Shown piece by piece: positions 3,701 through 64,000 of a DNA stretch of 64,000 nt (positions are counted from its first letter, which is position 1; every line of letters begins with the position of its first letter). The DNA is from Taiwanofungus camphoratus. Taxonomy: Eukaryota; Basidiomycota; Agaricomycetes; Polyporales; Taiwanofungaceae. The notes below the pieces were generated by a model, which worked only from the letters and a program-made list of their open reading frames with translations, did no database searches and was not told the DNA's origin. The translations under genes and the position numbers were made by a program. Where the stretch lies: assembly GCA_003999685.1 (NCBI GenBank), contig CP021227.1, positions 1,757,499 through 1,821,498 of the forward strand, read 5' to 3'.

Positions 3701-6700
3701 TCTTCCATCGTGACCGGTGTCGAGGAAGCATGCAAGATCCTCAAGTCGCTTCTACCAAGTGTTCCACGTCAGTCGCTTGTCAAAACTAAGTCACCAAGAG
3801 ATGCGACTACCGTGAAGAGATCCGCCATAAAAGGTGGAGTGGGTACTACTCGTACAATGTTGCCGAGATCAAGAGCGAAGAAGGCAGTCAATGCAGACCC
3901 TCCAGTGACCCCAAAGGCTCGAAAAGGTGAGCGCATGGACTTCAGTAATTCCGTGGATGAAAACCAACTTACTCGATGATAGTGCTCAATGATGTATCAT
4001 TAAATACTGTGACCGCACCTCTGAACTCTTCAGCGCTGCCTAGCAAGTCCTTCACATTGGATCACTTCAAGAAGCTAATGAATCTCGTCCGTGAGTATTT
4101 CTGCTTTAGCCCTTGGCTTCAAAATTTAGAACTTTAATTGATTGCTCCACTTGGAAGAGATGGCCTCTGAACTACTCGGATTGATGGGCTACGTTCTCGC
4201 GAAGATTCATCTTCTCAGCGTGGCCTGGAAATTGAGTGAACATCAAGAGGGTCCTGCATCTGAAGGTAAGGCTACGGTGATTCCATGCATTCCCTGTCTC
4301 AAACATTTTCAAGAATATATAATCATGTCCGTCGACCTTGCACATGAGTACGTCAAGCTCGGCAGGGCCGAAAAGGCCGCTTCAATCTACAGTCAAGCTC
4401 TCACAGCAATTCGTAATGTTGGAACCACTACGGAAATTCGCACTTTATTTCTCCTGCGATACGCAGAATCTTTGGCTGCTAGCGGCAACGTTCTAAAGGG
4501 GTAAGTGAAAACAACGTCCATGATCATCCAGCTTAGACGTCAAGTTGAACAATAGGTCGAGTATATATTGCGAAGCCTTGGCATTGTCAGATGCTCTCTC
4601 TTCCGACACGAAAGGGTTATCAACCTCGCAACGGGTGAAACTACGGGTAGCGGTTCTGCAACGGGCAGCCATTGCTGCAACCACGTTTTCAGCTATACAA
4701 TACTGTAAAGTCTGTCGTGAATTTCTCGTTGGCATCTTTCGCGTCTCAATACTTTTGATAGGACGATCCTGCGATGTCATTCAATGGTTTGTTGCAGGCA
4801 CTACGGCTGTGGAACCGCGCTATTGAAACTCTTGCCCGCCTGAGCTCCTCTTCGTCCAAAAGTAGTGGGGAAGAAATTAACCCATTCGAAGTGACTCATA
4901 GCGAAGATGCACAATCCAATCCTGGTAACAGATGTACACTTAGCGAGCAAGTTGCACCATCAAGAGCATTGTCACTGAAATCCTCCATGGACGGTATGGA
5001 GTGGCGAATAGCCGCAGGGGCACTTGAAACTCTTCTCGCACTATCTCAGGCTTACTTTGCTAGGGGTTCACCGCGTGAGGCAGAATATTTTGCGCAGCAA
5101 GCACATGATTTGGCTAAATGCCTACATGCACCTGCCATGATCAGCCGTGCGCTGGCGCAAGACGGGGAGATTTTGCTTCATTTAGGTCGTCTCGACGAAG
5201 GGTATGATGCCCTTGTGCAGGCGGCAAGCTTGATAGCAGATGTATTGGGGCCTGATGCAGTGAACATCCGCCGTTTGCACGGTCATTATAGTCAACTGAG
5301 GGCGAGACATGGTGATGCTCAGCGGCTTTTTGAGGAAGCTATGAATATGCTCGACGAACTATCACAGGCGTTTGCAGCATTTGACGGCGCTACAATCGGG
5401 TAGGTTAAATGTTATAGGTTGAGGTATAGATCGAGGGTACCACTAATCCCACCCTCAGCACCAGAAAATCTCTCGGAATGTCTCCTCGGGGTCCAACGGT
5501 TCGACGTGCCAACGACGCCCTAGTCCCTACCCTCCTGGCAGCGGTTTTGCGACAGCACAGTTAGTGCCCTCAAAATTTGTCGTACCACTGCTCTGATTAA
5601 TTGATTCATAGTATGGCTCTTGCGTGACACGGGAGAAGAATACAAGACTCTGCTCGAACGGTTTTCTACATTGCCGCCTACTGTAGAAACAAAGGTGATT
5701 CGTGAATACTGTTATCAGTCTAGTCAGGTATACTTATTCAGAATCAGGCTGAAGAAAGTGCGCTTATCGCTAAGCTTACCCTTGACGATGTATACTCGCG
5801 ATTCCGAGCAGACATGTTCCTCAGTTCTCTGGCAGAATCCGGTGGGTTTAATATGTTTCCCGTCATGCCATACACAGACTCATATGTGCTCAGCGATCAC
5901 AATTCCTGTGGGGATGTCTAGCTCACGGACCACTTCTATATCTTCTGCCGCACAAGATATCCTCCATACTTTGACCGCTGTGGAGAAGTCGTTGTGGGCT
6001 GATTTATCTCTGATCGCCCACCGAGGCAATGTTCCTCATGTTCGTGATACTGCTACATCCTTGGCTTTGATCAGAGCACTGCAGACGTCTCTGGGATCTG
6101 GAGGGGAAGAAGCGTCTGGCATTGCTGCTCATCTGATAGGTGATTGTTTCGTGGCAAGCTTCGTCTTACTCAACTATTCACGCATAGTTTACCAGATGTC
6201 TCATCAGCAATTACTTTACATCGCGAGATGCTTGAGGCTATCCAACATAAATTTATTGATCCAGTGTCATTCAATGATATGCGCTGGCCTTCGATGACCC
6301 CGAACGGTTCGCCATTAGCCCCTCGTACACAAACCCATAGTCGTTTCGAACCAGCTGGTGACTCAGATGAAGAAGTAGATGATGTATGTCACTCATCATC
6401 GCTCAAGGATTACTGGAATTTGGTGCAAAAGAAGTATCGATCTCGAGTTTTTGATCCTACCGCTATGTTAAATGATCAGGAGTATGACTTGCCTTCCCAC
6501 TGGACAGTTGTAAACATCAGTGTCACGGAGGACAAAAACTTGATGTTCATCACACGGCAAAGAGCTCAGCGGAAACCCTTGGTATTCTGTTTACCGTTGA
6601 AAGGGCGACGTGACAACGAAGACGAAGACTACTTGGGTTTTAATGATGCCATCAGCGAATTGAAGACCATTATACAGCTGAACGACGAAGGGACCAAGCA

Positions 6701-8431: not shown

Positions 8432-11400
8432 TCAGCCAATAATTTGATCTACTTCCTCTTCCTCCTCGTCTTCGTCTTCTGGGGCATCAATGTCCCCATC
8501 TAATCCTTCAGCATGGCTAGTGGATCGAAAATTAGTAAAGGATACCATCCGAGAGAGTGGAATAGTCAAATTTACCTTTCTTTTGTTCTCGAGGATGAGG
8601 GAGCAAGTGTACCTTCTTCACCGTCATCATCGTCTTCACTGTCTCTCCTAGGAGTAACCGCCGCAGAGATGGCTCGTCTCGATCTCTCCGCTCTAAAGTG
8701 AGGAATGATTCATTCAGCATTTTCAACGGGAGAAAAATACGGTACACATACGCAGAACGCCTGGGCATCACCCGCGTTGGTGCAACGGATGTGGGAGGTG
8801 TCGATCCAGTCTCTGTACGAGTGTCGTCATCGGATTCATCATCTGACTGAGATAGACGTCTTCTCCTGTAGGTACGTCTGAATGAACGATTCGAGTAACC
8901 TCTACAAGAGATGCACTCACTTGGCTTTGCCCTTGTGACGTCGGGGTGACGGAGGAACACTATCGATTTCTTCGGACACACCACTAGCGGTTGAAACTGT
9001 GACAACACTCTCAGATCTCCTGATGTAGAACGTGAGACGAGGAAGGTCTCGAGCTTTCTCGAAACGAAGTGAAACATACCGCTTCCTGGTTTTCTTTGGT
9101 TTTTCGTCTTCTTCGCTGTCCGACTCAATTTCGTCCAAAAATTCGAAAAGACCCTTTAAGTTCTCCAGCTGTCGATATTCTTCCTCGCTGAAGCCTTCCA
9201 GTTGCCTTTCGAACTTTTTCGAGATAGCGCTGTCGAACTTGACAAATGCATTCTGAGACGCGGTATCTCGAAGAGGTCGCCGCTAGTCAATAATTAATGA
9301 GACGACAGGAATCCTAATGTGCAATTGAGAGTAACACCAACTGAGCGCAGATTATGAGTGAGAAGCTTCAGAGTGCGTAATTTATCATCGTCGAGAATGT
9401 CGGGAATGTGGAGTTTGCCAAGCAGTTGACACAATGCTTTCTTGTCATCCTCTGACGGCCGGAAATGCAATGCATAAGTCATGACGTGGGCACTATCCAT
9501 ACGACCGAGAGCAAATACTCACTCTCCATTTCCTTGCTGAACAAGGCTTTGACAATATCACTCGCTAAATCTATGTGGATGGTATCATCAGCAGGGTTGT
9601 CTCGCAACCCCTTAGTGACGGTACTACAAAAGTCGATTTGAGGGGAGATTACTGGCAGGTCAAGATATCGAAGACGTACGCTGCCTTCTGCGGATCTGTC
9701 CAATCAACAAACATGAGTCCTACTTGTGCAGGCGTGACTATCTCTTCGTCCCCATCCCACTCCATGTATGTTGATATCAGGTGCTCGTACAGAGGAATAA
9801 ATACCTATGTGAATATGATCGGATATCAAATAGCTATTAACCTCTGTTAGGTGACAGTAAGATAGAGACAAGATCACCTTCTGCATCCGCCGTTGGTTGG
9901 CGGCTGATGAATAACAATACACAGGGAAGAAGTATGAAAGGCATTGTCTGAGTTCCTGGTTCGTCGCAGTTTCTGGCGAGATGAAGACGAGCACCAAGCT
10001 CTTCAAGACCTATGCACAATGGAAGTCAGCGAGCCTCCTGCAAAGCTCGGGATGATAGTACTTGCCCGATCATCGGTGATCATACCGGAGAGCATCAGCT
10101 TCGAGATCCCAATGCAGAGGAGTGCCTGCACTTGGTCTGAGTCCTCCTTTTCTAGCAGATGGAGGAAGTATTCGACAATACGGTCGCCCTGCTCTCGCGT
10201 CAGTACTACTACAACGGATAAGAAGGTATAAGTTCACGTTCGCACTCCCGGGCCCGAGGAAGTCACCCTCGTGCACCATGAGGATGTCGAACACTATCTG
10301 CAGCACGCTGATCTTAATAACTTCCGGTGCGGACTGGATCTGACTCAAGAATAGCTGAAACGAGTTCAATGCCATGCGCTGTACGGTGGGGGTATCAATA
10401 AAAAGAGACTCTGTGAATGGAGGCAAGCATACCCGTGCGATTAGACAACAAAGTCCGAGACTGACGAGGCCCCGCTGCCTCAGTAACAGCTCCTTGCGCT
10501 TTACAGCGGGAATAATCAGCTCGCCCAAGATTCCCTCTAGCGTCGAGTTCTCCTCGAAAGTCTGGAAGACAGTCAGCTAGTCTTGGCATGTTCATCGAAG
10601 CAGACTTACCCCGTTTACTCGCTCGAGCATCCCGATACAGAGGGAGAGGCAGCGTAGGTCTATCGCGTCAGCATGCGTCTTCTCCTCCGGCGTCATCTCA
10701 GAATTAGGTTTGGGCAGAGCACGGACTGTGCGCGCTGTCGTGGGAGTCTGTCCAAACTCACTCTCGCCATCGTTGGCTTCCCGCTAGCGCATGGGCGGAT
10801 CAGGTTTGACAGGTATTCACCTAGACAGTGTAGGGCTCACCGAATCTTCCTCTGGGTCACTCGGATCTCGCAACTCATGAACGACCTCGACAACGACACG
10901 AATTAGGTCACGTTCGTCCGGTGAGAGGATCCTGAGTACGTCCAGACAACGCGCAACTAGACTCTCTGGCAACACATCCTGCGAGATCATATCGCCTATA
11001 GCATTTCCTCAGCCCAGTCCATCGCCAAGGCACAATGAAAAACACTCACGGACTAGCTGGAACATCCGCCTCCTCCCAATCTCGTCTGCATAATCCAGAC
11101 CGACTGCGAGCCGCAGCATCTCACCGATAATAGACTCGCCATCCATCCGCTCCTCCTCTCGCCTCGCACGCTCTTCCTCCTCGTCTTCCGCGGCCTTCTC
11201 GTCTCTCATTCCAGCACGGAGTAGCTGGGCCTCCTCCTCAGCATGTACGAGCGCGATGAGCGCGTTGTACGCTGCCTGGATGCGGAAGGCCATTGCGGTG
11301 ACAACGGGAAGCGCGGACTCGAGCCGGGCATTGTCCTGTATCGCGGCGCAGTGCTCAGTGAAGACGCGGGCGAGGAAAGCTTTCTCTGGGGTGAGAGCAG

Positions 11401-48879: not shown

Positions 48880-49410
48880 TCAAGAGGATGACATGCGAAG
48901 GCGGAGGTAAGAGATTGTGGAAAGGCGGCAGCAACAACGAGCTCAGCCACGAGAATCGCAAAACAAACACGACGCGTCAATCACGTGTGCGTGGCCACCG
49001 ATTTTTGTGCCAACGCGAGTCAAGTCGTTGGTCTTTTCTTACCTTTCATCCATGGCAGCAGACTCGAAGCCGCGATGCTCGTCCCACACAGGACGTTTTG
49101 CGTCCATCTTCACGAGCGGGCAAGGTCTGAGTTTTCTATTCCTCTTGATCAATCCTAGCAGGATTCGACCTCGATGGTTGAGCGACGCAGCAGAAATACA
49201 CTCGATCCTTCATTAGCACCCGGAGACGCTTCTTTTGAAGCAGAGAGTGGATTCCCGGGTTTGGGATACGTAGCAGGGACTGGGCAGCACATCGGTATTG
49301 TCGATACACCCACCGCCTTATCGGCATCTATTCGTGTCTACACGGACAGAAGGACTGGCTACCTTCTGTATGCTTCTTCAAAGCTAGTTCAGCGAAGTCA
49401 CTGCATTTGA
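48880..49410 (+). CDS. Possible small two-exon gene
   Basis: A frame ending PTQDVLRPSSRAGK (to about 49127) can be joined, by a very short 37-nt GT-AG intron ending at 49164, to DSTSMVERRSRNTLDPSLAP, then GFPGLGYVAGTGQHIGIVDT, ending near 49410. The intron is shorter than others in the window and the start codon is uncertain. It overlaps the likely promoter of the acidic protein gene. No family is recognised. Confidence 0.25.
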
Positions 49411-55330: not shown

Positions 55331-56089
55331 ATTATATAGGGATTTTCATAAGTCAGTTAGGGTTTGGGCAGGGTTCATTTAAGGATAATGGTGAATATTG
55401 CACGCGGTGAGTATGGTAAATACGATGCACGAAAATGGGTGCTGTGATGTGTATGTATGTAATTTGTATTCTACTGGGTGTGATATGATGAGTATGTGGT
55501 GATTGAAGTGTAGTACTAGTAACAAATGACAACGAGAAGAAGAAGAAGATATGTAAGTATTGGGAGGGGATAGAAATGGTATATGATATTGAGGGAACGG
55601 ATGAAAAGGGAAGATGTTGTGTGCCTTTAGGCTTGTTACTGGAGGCGCACAATTGAATGGGTGTGATGGTGAGATTGTGTGTGTGGTGAGGCTGTTTACT
55701 GGTGGCGCGCGGTCAGTCGATAGTCTGAAGGCGCGCGGTCAGTCAAGAGCCCGAAGGCGCGTGACCAGTAGAGAGCCCGAAGGCGTGCGACCAGTAGAAA
55801 GCCTGGAGGCGCATGATAGAGATGATGTGTGTCTGGTGACGAGAGTCGGATGGAGTGCTATAGATATAGATAGAGTCAATGTTTGTCAAGCAGATCTGGG
55901 AAAGATGATAGAGTATTAGTGACATGCCAGAGAAGATGGAAGAGAAGATAAGGAAGTGACGATCTAATCAAATAAGGCAAGATGAGTGGAGCGATCTGGA
56001 CAGGGGGTCTAACTGAAGAAGGCAAGAGTTATCTAGATGAGGAACTGACAGAACGGAGCACCTTGAGGCAAGAGAACTGCGTGCAACCT
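55331..56089. repeat. Subtelomeric repeat A, copy 1
   Basis: This copy matches 56958-57719 nearly base for base, from ATTATATAGGGATTT to the GAACTG...CAACCT end. It differs mainly by scattered substitutions and by the length of an AGA microsatellite near 55540. It contains four to five units of the 26-bp GC-rich minisatellite (55700-55815). Frames inside both copies are similar but change by substitution and lack a convincing start, so I do not call a gene. Copy 2 lies directly upstream of the ParB-like gene, so repeat A may be the 5' flank of that gene family. Confidence 0.9.
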
Positions 56090-56682: not shown

Positions 56683-56697
56683 ATAGGTTAGGTTAGG

Positions 56698-56957
56698 AGG
56701 TGGAGCGAGCAACGACGAAGGAGTTGCGAGCGTTGAGAAGACTTAATGGAAGCTAGTACTAATTAGCCCGATATTGCTATCGGACGGCTAATTTCGACTA
56801 AGTCTCATCAGAGCACTAGCGTCGCTTATAACCAAGTTCAACCAAAGTCACGCTTATGGTTGAGTCAGGGCCCGGGGGCCGGTGACTAAGTCAGTTTGAC
56901 CTTACCAGGGCAAAGGGTTGCGGATGGGAGCGAATCACGTCTCTCCCTCCTATCCTG
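56698..56957 (-). mobile_element. Telomere-attached element S1 (interstitial copy)
   Basis: The left boundary is TAGG plus two TTAGG repeats (56684-56697), then AGGTGGAGCGAGCAACG. It carries the hammerhead at 56752-56820, the paired CAACC/GGTTG hairpin, GGCCCGGGGGCC and TGACTAAGTCA. It stops at CCTATCC, where repeat A2 starts. It is the same family as S2-S6, which lie 5 kb closer to the telomere. The sense strand is taken as minus because the ribozyme folds only on that strand. Confidence 0.85.
56752..56820 (-). ncRNA. Hammerhead ribozyme (type I), copy in S1
   Basis: Minus-strand reading: stem I 5' strand GCTAGTGCT, core CTGATGA, stem II GAC-TTA-GTC, GAAA, stem III ATTAGCC...GGCTAAT with an upper CGATA/TATCG stem (loop GCAA), then H17 = T and stem I 3' strand AGTACTAGC. 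All nine stem I positions pair, one as G-U. The predicted cleavage is between 56761 and 56760. Every invariant core base of the hammerhead family is present. Confidence 0.93.
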
Positions 56958-57719
56958 ATTATATAGGGATTTGCATAATTCAGTTAGGGTTTGGGCAGGG
57001 TTCATTTGAGGATAATGGTGAATATTGTGCGCGGTGAGTATGATAAATACGGCGCACGAAAACGGGTGCTGTGATGTGTATGTATGTAATTTGTATTCTA
57101 CTGGGTGTGATATGATGAGTATGTGGTGATTGAAGTGTAGTACTAGTAACAAATGACAAGAAGAAGAAGAAGAAGAAGATATGTAAGTATTGGGAGGGGA
57201 TAGAAATGGTATATGATATTGAGGGAACGGATGAAAAGGGAAGATGTTGTGCGCCTTTAGGCTTGTTACTGGAGGCACATGATTGAATGGGTGTGATGGT
57301 GAGATTGTGCGCGCGGTGAGGCTGTTTACTGGTGGCGCGCGGTCAGTCGATAGTCTGAAGGCGCGCGGTCAGTCAAGAGCCCGAAGGCGCGTGACCAGTA
57401 GAGAGCCCGAAGGCGCGCGACCAGTAGAAAGCCTGGAGGCGCGTGATAGAGATGATGTGTGTCTGGTGACGAGAGTCGGATGGAGTGCTATAGATATAGA
57501 TAGAGTCGATGTTTGTCAAGCAGATCTGGGAAAGATGATAGAGTATTAGTGGCATGCCAGAGAAGAAGGAAGAGAAGATAAGGAAGCGACGATCTAACCA
57601 AATAAGGCAAGATGAGTGGAGCGATCTGGACAGGGGGTCTAACCGAAGAAGGCAAGAGTTATCTAGATGAGGAACCGACAGAACGGAGCGCCTTGAGGCA
57701 AGGGAACTGTGCGCGACCT
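56958..57719. repeat. Subtelomeric repeat A, copy 2
   Basis: 762-bp near-identical copy of 55331-56089. It follows S1 without a gap and ends 86 bp upstream of the ATG of the ParB-like gene. It includes an expanded AGA microsatellite near 57157-57178 and minisatellite units at 57320-57447. Confidence 0.9.
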
Positions 57720-58684
57720 CGAGTCTTGCCAGCAAACCACTATCATCTGTGCTTCACTGCTAAAAAGACTTGCTTTACATTTCATTGTCTACTGTACTGA
57801 AAGCTATGCCTCCAAAAGGGAAAGGACGAGCCAAGGATGCCGGTGGAAGGGTGAAGGTGAGTGATTGTTTTGAGATGCCGTTGTGTTTTGAGAGAGCGAA
57901 CGAGCGCTAAGTGTGCTGTGTTGGATGGGACAGGGCGGGGGATCGGTGCGTGATTGATTGGTGGTTTATGTGTGTGATGGACTGATATGTTGTGTGGGAT
58001 TGATAGGGGAGCGATCTGGAGAAGATCAATTGGGAGGACCGGATGCATGAGCGAAGGGAAGCAGCTGTGTACGACGAACCGATCATCTCGACGAAGTGGA
58101 TGAAATTGGACAAGGAGTTGTCTGAGGCGTTCCTGGGGTATACGAAGATGGACATACTGTCTGAACGACCGTTCAAGATTGTATTCCGGCGGTGGAATCT
58201 TCGGGATGTGAACGACAAGTGGACGCGGGAGCTGTACGACAGCTTCCAGCTTGCGTATCTGCCACTGATGGAGAAAAATGCGATCCCTCTTATGGTAAAT
58301 CGAGACGACATTCGGACTGACAATTTAGCGCAGGTGGGAACGTTAGGGAATGATCTGCCTACGCTGGAGCTGCGGGATCCGAAGGGCGGAACGATTACTG
58401 TGTGGGCAGCGTCTGGGCAGCATCGGCATGCGGCTGCGAAGCTAATGTATACGAACCTGGAGAAGCAGCGCAAGACGTTACTGGAGAACATCGAGAAGAT
58501 CCGACAGAAGAGGGTGAAGAATCGGAACGACGTTGAGCGACACGACACCTTGCAGAATGAGCGGGACAAGGTGTTGGGGACGATGAAGGTGACGCCGATA
58601 TGGTGCGTGAAGATATACGACGTCAGTGAGTATTGTATTATGATTTGTATATACATATGTAGACTACAAGGGAGGGAGCTGTAT

Positions 58685-58815
58685 TGACCGCGTTGCGCGC
58701 GGTCAGTAAGTAGCCTCGTGGCGCGCGGTCAGTAGGCAGCCTTGTGGCGCGCGGTCAGGAGACGGCCTCACGGCGCGCGGTCAGCAAGTGGCCTCATGGC
58801 GCACGATGGATGCGT
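58685..58815. repeat. 26-bp GC-rich minisatellite inside an intron
   Basis: Four to five head-to-tail units of GCGCGCGGTCAGTAAGTAGC plus CTCGTG lie wholly within the intron between the KIYDV and LAENLSDE exons. Units differ by a few substitutions. Confidence 0.85.
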
Positions 58816-59854
58816 GTTCAATGGTCTGCGATGTGCGCGCGCTCGGGCTATATACTGACAGCGCGCGACAGAGAGGATGGACTGAGTGCTGACGAGAGCT
58901 TTGGCAGAGAATCTGTCGGATGAAGCGTGCAATCAAGAGGCGAGAAACGGTGGTCTCCACGAGTTCAAAGAGACAATAGAGGATCAGCTTTCGGAGCGGG
59001 CGAACAGGCTGCGTCGCGCAGCTCAATACGGGAAAGAGGACTACATGAAGGCATACGAGGAGAGCATGCAGCTGACGTCGTCGAATACGCCGTTGTCAAG
59101 GGTGCTCAACTGTGAGCAGATGATGCGGAGTCTGAGCGGGCTGTTGATGTTTGGGGACCACTTTCGACGTGGTCTGATGTTCAAGGTGTTGCGCGTGTCG
59201 TCGATGATTCAAGTGTACGGTGGTGTAAGTGATGCAATTGGTCACGATTTTATTGATGATACATGCGCTGACGATACGTGATGCTGTACTACGTGCAGTT
59301 CATGGTCCAGGTGATCGAGTTGGGGATTCGACGTTTGCAAGCGTTGTCGAATCCGTACGAGGAAAAGGTTGACGAGCGGATCGCAGTTCTTCTGGTGAAG
59401 TTTGGGAAGATGCAGAGCGTCGATGAGAAGAACCCGACGGTGGTGGAGTTGAAGGAGCTGCGAGAGACGGTGCGTGGGTTCCAGAAGATGGAGTTTGACA
59501 TGTGGAAGGGCGACGTGCTGAAGAAGATCGACGAGGCGTATTTGATGAACATTCACACTGTGGAGGTGATCGGGTTCAAGACGAACGAGGCGTTGAAGGA
59601 GATATCTGATTACTCTGCGGACGTGGAGAAGTCATTGGTGCCATATCTGAAGAGCGTGACGGGCAACACGGAGGAGGAGGAGGTGATGCGGGTTGCGTTC
59701 GTGAACCGGATCAAGCTGGAGTTGCAATACTTGCCTGGAGATGAGGAGGCACCCATGCCATTGATGACGAACCAGTTTCTGGAGACGATGGCGTTATCGT
59801 TTTCTGGGGCGAGCGATGCGATCCAGGAGGTGAGTGAAGATGTGTATGATGTGA

Positions 59855-60330
59855 CAAGTGCATTGCGCGCGGTGAGGCTACTTACTGTGGGCGCACGCAC
59901 GTCACTTGTGATGGGATCACGATGACATGACACACAGAAGCTCGTGCACGGCCAGTATGTAGCCCCACGGCACGGACGTCACCAGACATGCCCACCTTGT
60001 TTGCGCGCTGTCAGTAAGTAGCCTGACGGCGTGCGAACGGGGTGTGTGGATACACGACTCTACAGTCAGGTGTGCTCTCGTGCGCGGCCAGTAAGTAGTC
60101 TCACGGCGCGGACACTGCTAGATATAGTCACCTTGTTCGCGCGCCGTGAGGCGTGCTACTGTGGGCGCGCGAGAGCAAGTCTGATTGCAGCAGTCTCATC
60201 TCTGTGATGAGACTGACTGTTGCTCTTGCGCGTGGCCAGTAACTAGCCCCACGGCGCACGAACAAGATGGACATACCTGGTCTGAGGTGCGCGCGCTCGG
60301 GCTACTTCCTGATGGCGCGCGAACAATGCT
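59855..60330. repeat. Dispersed minisatellite units, both orientations, in an intron
   Basis: At least six copies of the same core (CAGTAAGTAGCCTCACG or its reverse, CTACTTACTG) lie in the intron between the SDAIQE and VSRWYEGLGD exons. Each is flanked by GCGCG/CGCGC arms. Inside is a larger inverted repeat, 60165-60232, with arms GCGCGAGAGCAA and TTGCTCTTGCGCG plus an inner CAGTCTCATC/GATGAGACTG stem. Confidence 0.8.
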
Positions 60331-61726
60331 CTCATTTTTATAAGGGATGTGTACTCACGCTATCCGGTCTCCAGGTCTCCAGATGGTACGAGGGCTTGGG
60401 CGATTACTTCGGCAAGGGCTCGAAGAACCACGAGCTGGACGACTATTCGATGGCCATGTTCAGGGCCATCCGTCAGATCCCCAAGATCGACCAGAACGGT
60501 GCGACGGAGGCGGTGAGTGTCTTACACCACAACCAGTTTCGTGGATTGTACATGCTGACCAGAGTTGTTGTAGGTGTGGAACGTGATCTGGAAGTCCAGA
60601 TACACGGCCCTCCATCACCTGAACCTGCTCCTCGGCGAAACTCGCGTCCAGCTCGCGATGGACCGTGAAGTCGATCGCGCCGCACTGAGGAACATGGTCG
60701 AGAACGAGAGCATGGACGCGGACGACATCCTCGCAAAGAACAAGGTGGTCGAGCCTGAGCGCAAGCTGGTGCTCGCCCGGCTGATGAATACAATGTACAA
60801 GATGACGTCGGAGCTCGCGGGGGAGAAGTTGTCGAAGAAGAAGCTCATGGACATGGGCGAGCTGGGGATCGGATTGACTCCCAATCTGTCGTGGCCCGGC
60901 ATGCAGCTTCTTCTCCAGACGACTTGGCCATGGTTGAAGGCGGAGCGCATGAAGAACGTGAACCGGGACGCGTTGCCTCCAGCCGCGGCCGCCCTGAACG
61001 AATACTACACGGTCAAAGAATATCGGCACCTTCTGATGGACGAGGTCGTCCATCAGTTTCGCAACGACCTGTTCAAGGCGACTTCGGAGAACGAGACCCC
61101 GACGATGCTGGTGCGAGGCCGTCAGCGGGTGTGGAATTGGGTCGACGGGCTGTTCGACATCTGTCCAGATGCTGCGGTGATACACGAGCTGGACCAGTCT
61201 GAAGACGATGTCGCAAACCAGCCGGCGAAGCAGCAGCAGTCAAAGCAGCAGCAGCAGCAGAAGGGGAAGGGGAAGGGGAAGGGGAAGGACAAGGTGAGTG
61301 CAGGTGTGGAGGGCAGCAAGAGGACCGCTGTCACATCGAAGAAGTCCGGCATACGGAAGAAACAGACGAGCGCGTCTGCTGAAGTCGGGGATGCGGACGT
61401 CGAGGACAGCGAAGATGATGAGGTCCAGATCATCGAGGCTCCCAAGGCCAATCTCCAGGCCATCTCGAAGAGAAGACAGGAGCTGCAAGCGGACCAGAAG
61501 ACGATCCGTGCCCTCATCATGCGTATCGAGATGTTTCCGCTGACGAGGCACTCGTACATGGACGGCTCGAAGGGGCCTATCGTGAAGGACATTCACGATA
61601 CGCTGGACTACTTGAGCGAGGTGAGTGATATGTTCATTTCAGCATTTCTATCGCTGAATAAGTTTTCGACGATCTCACTCTCAGCTGATAGAGGAGAACG
61701 CGGCGTGTTTCCGCTATCGTCGAGAG

Positions 61727-61741
61727 TTAGGTTAGGTTAGG
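61727..61741 (+). repeat. Interstitial telomeric tract at the gene break
   Basis: Three TTAGG repeats directly follow the broken last intron of the ParB-like gene and precede S2. This is the signature of a broken end that received telomere repeats. Confidence 0.85.
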
Positions 61742-61908
61742 AGGTGGAGCGAGCAACGACGAAGGAGTTGCGAGCGTTGAGAAGACTTAATGGAAGCTAG
61801 TACTAATTAGCCCGGTATCGCTACCGGACGGCTAATTTCGACTAAGTCTCATCAGAGCACTAGCGTCGCTTATAACCAAGTTCAACATAAGTCACGCTTA
61901 TGATTGGG
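61742..61908 (-). mobile_element. Telomere-attached element S2 (167 bp)
   Basis: Same 3'-end type as S1 (AGGTGGAGCGAGCAACG). It carries a hammerhead and stops within the CTTATG hairpin, where TTAGG/TTAGGG repeats (61909-61924) begin. In sense (minus) orientation this is a 5' truncation. Confidence 0.87.
61796..61864 (-). ncRNA. Hammerhead ribozyme, copy in S2
   Basis: Same core and stem I as S1. The upper stem III is CGGTA/TACCG instead of CGATA/TATCG, a paired A-T to G-C change that keeps the helix. Predicted cleavage is between 61805 and 61804. Confidence 0.93.
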
Positions 61909-61924
61909 TTAGGTTAGGGTTAGG

Positions 61925-61992
61925 AGGAGGAGACAACAGCGCCGCAGGTTAGGTTAGGTTAGGTTAGGTTAGGTTAGGAGGTCTAGGTTAGG
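61925..61992 (-). mobile_element. Two ultra-short element copies separated by TTAGG repeats
   Basis: 61925-61948 is a 24-nt copy beginning AGGAGGAGACAACAGCGCC (the S3 end type), cut before the ribozyme. Six TTAGG repeats follow (61949-61978), then a 6-7-nt copy (AGGTCTA, the S4/S6 end type), then another short TTAGG tract leading into S3. Both keep the RNA 3' end and lose the rest. Confidence 0.7.
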
Positions 61993-62228
61993 AGGAGGAG
62001 ACAACAGCGCCGCAGGTGCTGTTGGTGCGCTAAGAAAGGAAGAGGCTTAGGAGAAGCTAGTACTAATTAGCCCGATATTGCTATCGGACGGCTAATTTCG
62101 ACTAAGTCTCATCAGAGCACTAGCGTCGCTTATAACCAAGTTCAACCAAAGTCACGCTTATGGTTGAGTCATGGCCCGGGGGCCGGTGACTAAGTCAGTT
62201 TGACCGAACCAGGGCAAAGGGTTGCAGG
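61993..62228 (-). mobile_element. Telomere-attached element S3 (236 bp)
   Basis: Begins AGGAGGAGACAACAGCGCC, includes a hammerhead, the CAACCA/TGGTTG hairpin and TGACTAAGTCA. It ends GGGTTGCAGG at a TTAGG tract (62229-62253). Confidence 0.87.
62056..62124 (-). ncRNA. Hammerhead ribozyme, copy in S3
   Basis: Identical fold to S1 with CGATA/TATCG upper stem and loop GCAA on the minus strand. Core CTGATGA...GAAA is intact; predicted cleavage is between 62065 and 62064. Confidence 0.93.
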
Positions 62229-62253
62229 TTAGGTTAGGTTAGGTTAGGTTAGG

Positions 62254-62719
62254 AGGTCTATGTATCAACACTACAAGGGCTGCGAGTGCAGGGCAGGAGG
62301 GGAGGCTTAGAGGAAGCTAGTACTAATTAGCCCGATATCGCTATCGGACGGCTAATTTCGACTAAGTCTCATCAGAGCACTAGCGTCGCTTATAACCAAG
62401 TTCAACCAAAGTCACGCTTATGGTTGAGTCATGGCCCGGGGGCCGGTGACTAAGTCAGTTTGACCGTACCAGGGCAAAGGGTTGCAGGTGGGAGCGAATC
62501 ACGTCTCTCCCTCCTATCCTAATCAGTCAGCGATGAGCAATCATCATTGTCTAGATTCGCCTAGACACCATTACTGATCAGATGTCAGAGTCATCTGATT
62601 AAGATTAGAATCCGGACCGCAAGCCTAGGCTTTAAGATCCGAAATAAAAGATAGGAAGTCCGGGCCGGAGGTTAGTCCGGGCCGGACATAGATAGGAACA
62701 ACATAGCCGGTGCCGCACC
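62254..62719 (-). mobile_element. Telomere-attached element S4 (466 bp)
   Basis: Begins AGGTCTATGTATCAACACTA. It extends past the S3 end point through CCTATCCTAATCAGTCAG, a GC-rich block (GTCCGGGCCGGAGGTTAGTC) and ATAGCCGGTGCCGCACC, then meets a TTAGG tract (62720-62749). The extra sequence also occurs in S6, so S4 is a longer, less truncated copy. Confidence 0.87.
62316..62384 (-). ncRNA. Hammerhead ribozyme, copy in S4
   Basis: Same fold, loop GCGA. Predicted cleavage is between 62325 and 62324, about 71 nt from the element's RNA 3' end. Confidence 0.93.
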
Positions 62720-62749
62720 TTAGGTTAGGTTAGGTTAGGTTAGGTTAGG

Positions 62750-62974
62750 AGGTGGAGCGAGCAGCGCCGCAGGTGCTGCGAGTGCGATACGGGCTTGAAA
62801 GGAGGACTTAGAGGAAGCTAGTACTAATTAGCTCGCCTATGGAGGGGCGGGCAGCTAATTTCGACTAAGTCTCATCAGAGCACTAGCTGTCGATTTTAAC
62901 CGAGTTCAACCAAAGTCATGCTTATGGTTGAGTCATGGCCCGGGGGCCGGTGACTAAGTCAGTTTGACTTAAGG
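62750..62974 (-). mobile_element. Telomere-attached element S5 (225 bp), diverged
   Basis: Begins AGGTGGAGCGAGCAGCGCC. It is the most diverged copy: the region after the ribozyme reads CACTAGCTGTCGATTTTAAC instead of CACTAGCGTCGCTTATAAC. It ends at GACTTAAGG and a TTAGG tract (62975-62994). Confidence 0.85.
62817..62887 (-). ncRNA. Hammerhead ribozyme, diverged copy in S5
   Basis: Core, stem I and stem II match the others. Stem III keeps pairing by compensatory change (ATTAGCT/AGCTAAT instead of ATTAGCC/GGCTAAT), and the upper stem is replaced by CGCC/GGCG with a longer loop. Predicted cleavage is between 62826 and 62825. Confidence 0.92.
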
Positions 62975-62994
62975 TTAGGTTAGGTTAGGTTAGG

Positions 62995-63854
62995 AGGTCT
63001 ATGTATCAACACTACAAGGGCTGCGAGTGCAGGGCAGGAAGGAGGCTTAGAGGAAGCTAGTACTAATTAGCCCGATATCGCTATCGGACGGCTAATTTCG
63101 ACTAAGTCTCATCAGAGCACTAGCGTCGCTTATAACCAAGTTCAACATAAGTCACGCTTATGGTTGAGTCATGACCCGGGGGCCGGTGACTAAGTCAGTT
63201 TGACCGTACCAGGGCAAAGGGTTGCAAGTGGGAGCGAATCACGTCTCTCCCTCCTATCCTAATCAGTCAGAGATGAGCAATCATCATTGTCTAGATTCGC
63301 CTAGACACCATTACTGATCAGATGTCAGAGTCATCTGATTAAGATTAGAATCTGGACCTTAAGCCTAGGCTCAAGATCCGAGATAAGAGATAGGAAGTCC
63401 GGGCCGAAGGTTAGTCCGGGCCGGATATAGATAGGAACAACATAGCCGGTGCCGCACCGATCATGTGACCGGGCCGCTTTTCCGGGCGTCTACTAAGGGC
63501 AGCGTGGACCACTGAGGAAGCATCATGTCATGGCACAAACCTGGGAATCCCCGTGAACACCCTGTCCGAGCCATGCGGGGCGGGGGAAGGATATTCAATA
63601 GGACCGCGTCCAGCAAGTTGCCGCACCGTGCTCTAGCATGTTACAACCCACAGATCACCAGATCATGGACTAACACAGCAGAGGGGCGCTGGGGACCATA
63701 GTAGTTATCGCGCGCTCCGCTAGCATGCGGGAACGGCGCGTACCGGGCCGCAGTGAAGGGCCGGTCCGTACTAAGTGCCGAACATATCATGTGACACGTA
63801 AGGCGTCTATCTATTTTAGGCAACCCTAAGCGCAGGACTGGGTAAGTCCGGCGG
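62995..63854 (-). mobile_element. Telomere-proximal element S6 (860 bp), longest copy
   Basis: Begins AGGTCTATGTATCAACACTA like S4 and follows it to about 63458 (GGTGCCGCACC). It then continues about 400 bp farther (63459-63854) into sequence not repeated elsewhere in the window, ending at the terminal TTAGG array. No reverse transcriptase or other long frame is present. Its position and length fit the most recent, least truncated addition. Confidence 0.82.
63056..63124 (-). ncRNA. Hammerhead ribozyme, copy in S6
   Basis: Same sequence as the S4 ribozyme. Predicted cleavage is between 63065 and 63064. It is the copy nearest the telomere. Confidence 0.93.
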
Positions 63855-64000
63855 TTAGGTTAGGTTAGGTTAGGTTAGGTTAGGTTAGGTTAGGTTAGGT
63901 TAGGTTAGGTTAGGTTAGGTTAGGTTAGGTTAGGTTAGGTTAGGTTAGGTTAGGTTAGGTTAGGTTAGGTTAGGTTAGGTTAGGTTAGGTTAGGTTAGGT
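63855..64000 (+). repeat. Telomere: 29 uninterrupted TTAGG repeats
   Basis: 146 bases of exact TTAGG pentamers reach the window edge, G-rich strand 5'->3' toward the end. Interstitial TTAGG tracts between S elements have the same unit, with a single TTAGGG at 61914-61919. Most studied basidiomycetes use TTAGGG. Confidence 0.93.

Follow-up and report, generated by a model that had tools for sequence, protein, structure and literature searches.

Hammerhead ribozymes in an array of solo terminal repeats, probably of a telomere-homing Penelope-like retrotransposon, in Taiwanofungus camphoratus

In a 2017 review, all available Penelope-like retrotransposons are described as displaying hammerhead ribozyme (HHR) motifs, usually minimal ones without helix III (PMC6155905). 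The present work concerns an array of six HHRs at a chromosome end of the fungus Taiwanofungus camphoratus, in a 64,000-nucleotide stretch of DNA (hereafter the window; G000:C8:1757499-1821498) at the right end of contig C8 in an assembly of 33.2 Mb and 15 contigs. Very probably, the array consists of solo pseudo-long terminal repeats (pLTRs), most of them 5'-truncated and strung one after another, which derive from a Penelope-like retrotransposon targeting chromosome ends; the HHR would be its RNA-processing part. Judged by sequence, the element is a fungal relative of the published HHR-bearing Penelope-like elements, and its ribozyme is fuller than the review's description and strongly conserved. 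The original prediction for this DNA, which had recognised the six HHRs, holds in part; it had missed the parent element, of which intact coding copies lie at other chromosome ends.

Among the nearest described systems are the Terminons (Athena elements) of bdelloid rotifer telomeres, for which passages of PMC6431247 describe an HHR at the 3' end followed by reverse-complement repeats that pair with the telomere, a case restated in part of PMC12477314, where basidiomycete fungi are named among hosts. Those accounts also describe insertion at ends without the need for an endonuclease (EN), 5'-truncated copies capped by telomere repeats, and head-to-tail arrays, in all of which the fungal element is similar; here telomere-type repeats follow in 92 of 112 HHRs, after a tail of 65–80 nt. 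This tail between cut and join is itself a difference, as a review among those accounts places the Terminon repeats 'immediately downstream'. Furthermore, Terminons are giant (up to 40 kb, with accessory open reading frames (ORFs)), whereas the fungal element is ∼4.7–4.8 kb with one long ORF, its host has TTAGG telomeres and its relatives are fungal.

The canonical Penelope-like elements with a GIY-YIG domain, such as PAc of Anolis, offer a second comparison: according to passages of PMC11167929, PAc has the pLTR arrangement, an HHR at the pLTR–ORF junction and reverse transcription that starts inside the RNA; its insertion in vitro proceeds without HHR cleavage, and its HHR cut only with protein present. 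The fungal element shares the arrangement, the junction HHR and the internal start, but differs in that no GIY-YIG domain was detected, the start site is telomere-complementary, and the HHR lies 280–347 nt before the ORF match, whereas an HHR of the PAc type overlaps the start codon. On this evidence the element appears to combine the junction HHR and internal start of the Anolis type with the telomere-pairing repeats of the Terminon type.

Telomere-linked Penelope-like elements of basidiomycetes go by the name Coprina. Such elements are known at mushroom chromosome ends from Agaricus bisporus (PMC7473861). In the text of that paper, by which the Agaricus system is compared here, the word 'ribozyme' has 0 occurrences. 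A literature search by title and abstract found no paper treating hammerheads in telomeric fungal Penelope-like elements, and we make no claim that they are unpublished. The MoTeRs of Pyricularia are retrotransposons of a different type that are not known to carry an HHR. They are, similarly, fungal retrotransposons within telomere repeats, with truncated relics between telomere tracts, as described in passages of PMC8381367. Retrozymes likewise carry HHRs in retroelement terminal repeats; as outlined in part of the 2017 review (PMC6155905), they are non-autonomous with circular RNA, whereas the fungal element has a reverse transcriptase (RT) gene.

Hammerhead folds, conservation and distribution

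A script that scores hammerhead geometry only finds six complete type I folds on the minus strand of the window, at the places where the original prediction had put them (Table 1), each with the CUGAUGA/GAAA core, three helices, the A15.1-U16.1 pair, a NUH triplet and an open helix I. All six have a stem II of 3 bp (GAC-UUA-GUC), a helix III of 7 bp counting A15.1-U16.1, and AUU as the triplet. The 9-bp stem I claimed for each is found in five; the fifth HHR, which spans 62816-62888, has 10 bp. Elsewhere in the window, loose geometry rules gave one weak match (+ strand, 9900-10041; helices of 4, 3 and 4 bp). The chance level, estimated from 200 order-1 Markov resamplings of the window, was 0.05 loose matches per window, and no resampling gave a stem I of at least 7 bp.

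The genome carries a second HHR form, beta, with different stems; the geometry scan of the window gave copies of the alpha form only. A covariance model (R1) built from 9 of 11 distinct beta sequences and then run over the whole window returned six matches (E 1.2e-8 to 1.3e-6), which are exactly the six HHRs, with no others at E up to 10, and a sequence-only model of the same beta alignment recovered none of the six in the whole window. Alpha and beta differ in both partners of nine stem pairs (helix I pairs 1, 2, 4, 7 and 9; helix II pairs 2 and 3; helix III pairs 2 and 3), with pairing preserved in most sequences. Some positions speak against covariation: pair I-7 is broken in 2 of 24 distinct sequences, I-9 in 3 of 24 and I-10 in 10 of 24, and III-5 to III-7 are poorly kept in the simple register used. 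Within beta, 99.6% of cells pair, versus 28.9–50.5% with partners slid, and a GNRA loop closes helix III in 103 of 112 HHR copies. These patterns suggest helices kept through compensatory change, mainly in what is essentially one evolutionary contrast between alpha and beta.

Sequence diversity, with gaps counted as a state, was compared in 77 fully flanked alpha copies (54 distinct) and 33 beta copies (18 distinct). For alpha it is 0.124 in the 5' flank, 0.0086 in the 5' strand of stem I with the core and stem II, 0.094 in helix III, 0.000 in the 3' strand of stem I and 0.354 in the 3' flank; the beta values, in the same order, are 0.095, 0.017, 0.114, 0.000 and 0.084. Across these copies, which are related and hence not independent events, the HHR appears clearly more conserved than its flanks. 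This contrast in alpha, together with the nine pairs that changed on both sides and mostly still pair, is difficult to reconcile with the HHRs being inactive relics, or a mere structural landmark for the RT with cleavage irrelevant. We regard that explanation as improbable, even though many copies are identical, the best fold of the alpha form competes with the hammerhead, and insertion of the Anolis element in vitro is described, in the part of the report concerned, as independent of HHR cleavage (PMC11167929).

The distribution of the ribozymes is consistent with an element that homes to chromosome ends. In 294,918 bases of fetched host sequence there are 112 complete HHRs, 78 of the alpha form and 34 of the beta form, none farther than 34,611 bases from a contig end; 76 are on the + strand at left ends and 36 on the - strand at right ends, with 0 opposed, the HHR-bearing strand being that read from the chromosome tip toward the centromere. 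Pattern searches of the genome gave 134 alpha cores with up to 2 mismatches (backward control 1) and 42 and 23 beta cores with up to 1 mismatch (controls 0). All of the alpha cores among the 100 of 134 places listed are near ends, as are all beta cores, every one of which was listed. Complete HHRs and core patterns combined place at least one HHR core at each of the 28 nuclear contig ends (C1-C14). A looser core pattern matched 208 times in the genome versus 11 in the control; among the 100 matches listed, 93 are the subtelomeric forms and 7 are internal, which is about the chance expectation. One of these internal matches, far from any end (G000:C3:1924200, - strand), also has a 3-bp stem II. 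Contig C15 (150,773 bases) shows no HHR core or telomere repeat in the 10 kb inspected (L045); the ends of those 10 kb look AT-rich, and C15 is perhaps the mitochondrial genome. No HHR core was found in viral and bacterial sequence collections.

An HHR-bearing transcript would run from the tip inward carrying CCUAA. Transcripts of the telomeric repeat-containing RNA (TERRA) type have the G-rich polarity, and because the inward strand carries CCUAA, an HHR-bearing transcript would not be of that type. Release of unit-length RNAs, as suggested originally, does not fit the array: a read-through transcript would yield pieces of 239, 501, 260 and 260 nt, not of one length. Release of 239–501 nt RNAs, or processing of C-rich telomeric transcripts, is possible.

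The parent element and its reverse transcriptase

The full element has the arrangement pLTR-ORF-pLTR, seen in L032, with the HHR in the terminal repeat, an HHR-to-HHR period of 4,679 or about 4,769 nt (4.68–4.77 kb) and one long ORF between. A genome search with this ORF gave 58 candidates, of which 40 were scored. In 38 of these the frame is open over 1,173–1,182 amino acids; one of the remaining two has a TAA and the other is truncated to 1,018 amino acids. All 40 lie within ∼33 kb of an end and are directed inward, and the ORF falls into two subfamilies that are 81–83% identical. In 16 of these ORFs that were checked, the next HHR follows the ORF end after 900–901 or 912–937 nt, and in the 15 with an upstream HHR the distance from it to the ORF match is 280–281 or 337–347 nt.

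The ORF probably encodes a telomerase-like RT. An AlphaFold model of a 681-amino-acid relative (P0050; mean predicted local distance difference test score 81.6) has telomerases as its closest fold matches. A PDB search by sequence gave an RT as best match (E 0.007). There are 343 homologues, among which the 120 listed include four from named mushroom-forming fungi, of the genera Bondarzewia, Fibroporia, Armillaria and Lentinula; viral and bacterial collections contain no relative of the ORF. A genome search with PF00078 (150 scored of 419 candidates) was not informative, its matches being taken to be mostly Gypsy-like RTs. The host genome also has a gene with a telomerase RNA-binding domain (E 6e-14).

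The pLTR arrangement, the HHR in the terminal repeat and the modelled telomerase-like RT together point to a Penelope-like element. The GIY-YIG endonuclease that marks canonical, EN-bearing Penelope/Poseidon elements gave no Pfam match at E up to 1 in two ORFs or at E up to 0.1 in 14 proteins. Confinement to chromosome ends, an inward sense strand and a 3' join to telomere repeats, as in EN-deficient telomeric Penelope-like elements, are all observed at the places listed.

Telomere joins and a proposed mechanism

A CCTCC-type motif closes the tail 65–80 nt past the predicted cut in every one of the 112 HHRs. The telomere-type repeats that follow in 92 are TAACC in 90, GAACC in 1 and TAACG in 1, with a single unit in 6 of the 92, and in 20 of the 112 the tail is followed by (TAACC)2 running into the ORF leader. 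Because these joins coincide, the end of a solo unit corresponds to the short telomere-complementary stretch before the ORF in full elements. The 3' join, where CCTCC meets TAACC, is constant; the 5' ends vary, with telomere repeats on their outer side. Among 249 ends of telomere-like runs, 81 are inside telomere-like tracts. Of the pLTR starts, 57 follow the CGCTAA(A)T tract of the element itself and 22 follow plain telomere or tail; a further 20 ends belong to the internal tail-leader junction and 21 run into host DNA. The other 48 are scattered from leader to tail, 5 of them in the 3' untranslated region/CCTAA stretch and maybe misplaced. At L047 (G000:C13:1458921) a mini-unit, whose first A also belongs to the telomere repeat, has its 5' end exactly at the predicted HHR cut. 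This end was rejected as proof of cleavage in vivo, since it is 1 of 8 ends in the HHR 3' half or tail and not significant.

We propose that the 3' end of the TTAGG overhang would pair with the internal (UAACC)2 at the pLTR–ORF junction of the element RNA and prime reverse transcription onto the chromosome end. Copying would then run back through the ribozyme into the pLTR, often halting early, and telomerase would afterwards re-cap the end; 5' truncation of this kind explains the solo units. The HHR would be active in the element's own transcript, where its cut would separate the 5' pLTR from the ORF message, such that only uncut or re-joined RNA could template an HHR-containing insertion.

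Several points weigh against this interpretation. The priming step is deduced from the joins only, and near-identical copies may also have spread via recombination between ends. The Pfam RVT_1 match in the ORF is weak and under the cut-off. For the commonest HHR form, alpha, the minimum-free-energy fold is a competing pairing and not the hammerhead, and such folds were left unused as HHR support for that reason. At Rfam gathering thresholds zero HHRs are reported in the window, so that the level set by the curators is not reached. With E up to 10, all six match RF03152 (RAGATH-1-hammerhead) at 22.7–25.1 bits versus a gathering score of 56.3 (E 0.98–3.4). The Rfam check put forward with the original prediction, taken by itself, therefore neither confirms nor refutes the six HHRs; with nothing at gathering and only E values near 1 for RAGATH-1, Rfam was dropped as arbiter of HHR identity, and it was set aside because the beta-built covariance model separates the six cleanly. 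The analysis thus reveals a hammerhead form missed by Rfam thresholds.

A retrozyme-like, non-autonomous origin would have two HHR cuts release the solo units as RNA, which would be circularised and inserted by the RT of the full element. Tandem HHR units would indeed give pieces of 239–501 nt, and plant retrozymes propagate in this way according to a passage of PMC6155905; however, linear, internally primed copies already explain the common 3' join and the varied 5' ends, and we find this route quite unlikely. That the array is instead a host-used telomeric satellite, with tip-to-centromere transcripts cut per unit, C-rich telomeric RNA thereby limited and the HHR kept for a chromosome-end function, is very unlikely indeed, since for all that HHR cores are present at every one of the 28 ends, are strongly conserved and often sit in solo units without an ORF, the same HHRs are also carried, at a fixed spacing, by full elements whose RT genes are intact, and 5' truncation already accounts for the solo units.

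Returning to the retrotransposon, we propose from its sequence that the HHR serves the element in RNA processing and is not a separate host telomere device. It lies between the pLTR and the telomere-complementary start site. One tentative and rather doubtful idea is that the ribozyme is a two-fate switch, where cut RNA would serve as an ORF message with a 5'-OH and uncut or re-ligated RNA, retaining the pLTR and the pairing site, would serve as the telomere-primed template. If so, the unit that begins at the cut site would represent a rare case in which cut RNA was inserted, and every chromosome end would be shaped by a ribozyme-gated, telomerase-like retroelement alongside telomerase. In this one genome, 92 telomere-type joins lie at a nearly constant distance from the predicted cut, and ∼200 cores are spread over 28 chromosome ends.

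The array and its neighbourhood

Table 1. Predicted ribozymes, terminal-repeat units and telomere in the window
Feature	Position	Strand	Basis
U0, internal 5'-truncated solo pLTR	56696..56957	-	sequence, repeat comparison
HHR of U0, alpha form	56752..56820	-	geometry scan; R1 match 56751-56821, E 3.5e-8
U1, 5'-truncated solo pLTR	61740..61907	-	sequence, 5'-end survey
HHR of U1, alpha form with paired changes GGTA/TACC in helix III hairpin	61796..61864	-	geometry scan; R1 E 1.2e-8
U2, mini-unit, tail only, truncated before HHR	61923..61946	-	sequence; 5' end in end survey
U3, 8-nt mini-unit, tail end only, flanked by telomere repeats	61977..61984	-	sequence by eye
U4, 5'-truncated solo pLTR	61991..62226	-	sequence, 5'-end survey
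HHR of U4, alpha form	62056..62124	-	geometry scan; R1 E 3.5e-8
U5, 5'-truncated solo pLTR	62252..62719	-	sequence, 5'-end survey
HHR of U5, alpha form	62316..62384	-	geometry scan; R1 E 1.4e-8
U6, 5'-truncated solo pLTR, distal boundary uncertain by 1-3 nt	62748..62972	-	sequence, 5'-end survey
HHR of U6, alpha form with different helix III hairpin, without GNRA loop	62816..62888	-	geometry scan; R1 E 1.3e-6
U7, outermost unit, solo pLTR up to usual pLTR start (GCCGGACTT...)	62993..63852	-	sequence, end survey
HHR of U7, alpha form	63056..63124	-	geometry scan; R1 E 1.4e-8
Terminal telomere, TTAGG repeats up to contig C8 end	63853..64000	+	sequence

The setting of the HHRs between telomere repeats at a chromosome end, as originally described, is borne out: TTAGG repeats surround the array, and window and contig C8 stop together in 148 nt of uninterrupted TTAGG. 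The same 5-nt repeat is seen at other contig ends (L031-L050). A 5-nt TTAGG repeat is unusual for a fungus, and a literature search pairing TTAGG, basidiomycete and telomere terms as whole words returned no paper. The arrangement of the outermost unit, U7, recurs in L032 at 5687-6560.

Three telomere units (61727-61739) connect the innermost unit of the array, U1, to a broken gene. This intron-bearing subtelomeric gene (∼57797-61726, + strand) is interrupted at 61726, where the telomere repeats and the HHR array start; it has two relatives, one of which (P0001, 97% identical) differs beyond that point, and four pieces of it gave no Pfam match. The break resembles a chromosome end that was truncated and then healed through the addition of telomere repeats.

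Further inward, U0 has two telomere units at its 3' end (56686-56695), and its distal end is fused to a repeated subtelomeric segment. Near-identical copies (93–95%) of this ∼750-bp segment lie on either side of U0, at 55331-56080 and 56958-57700, a layout that would fit the fusion of a former telomere to a second subtelomere. A GC-rich unit of 26 nt forms arrays of roughly four copies in or beside the subtelomeric gene, at 55704-55812, 57334-57443 and 58691-58802. Outside this region, Rfam places a nuclear RNase P RNA at 49058-49404 on the + strand (32.3 bits versus a gathering score of 28).

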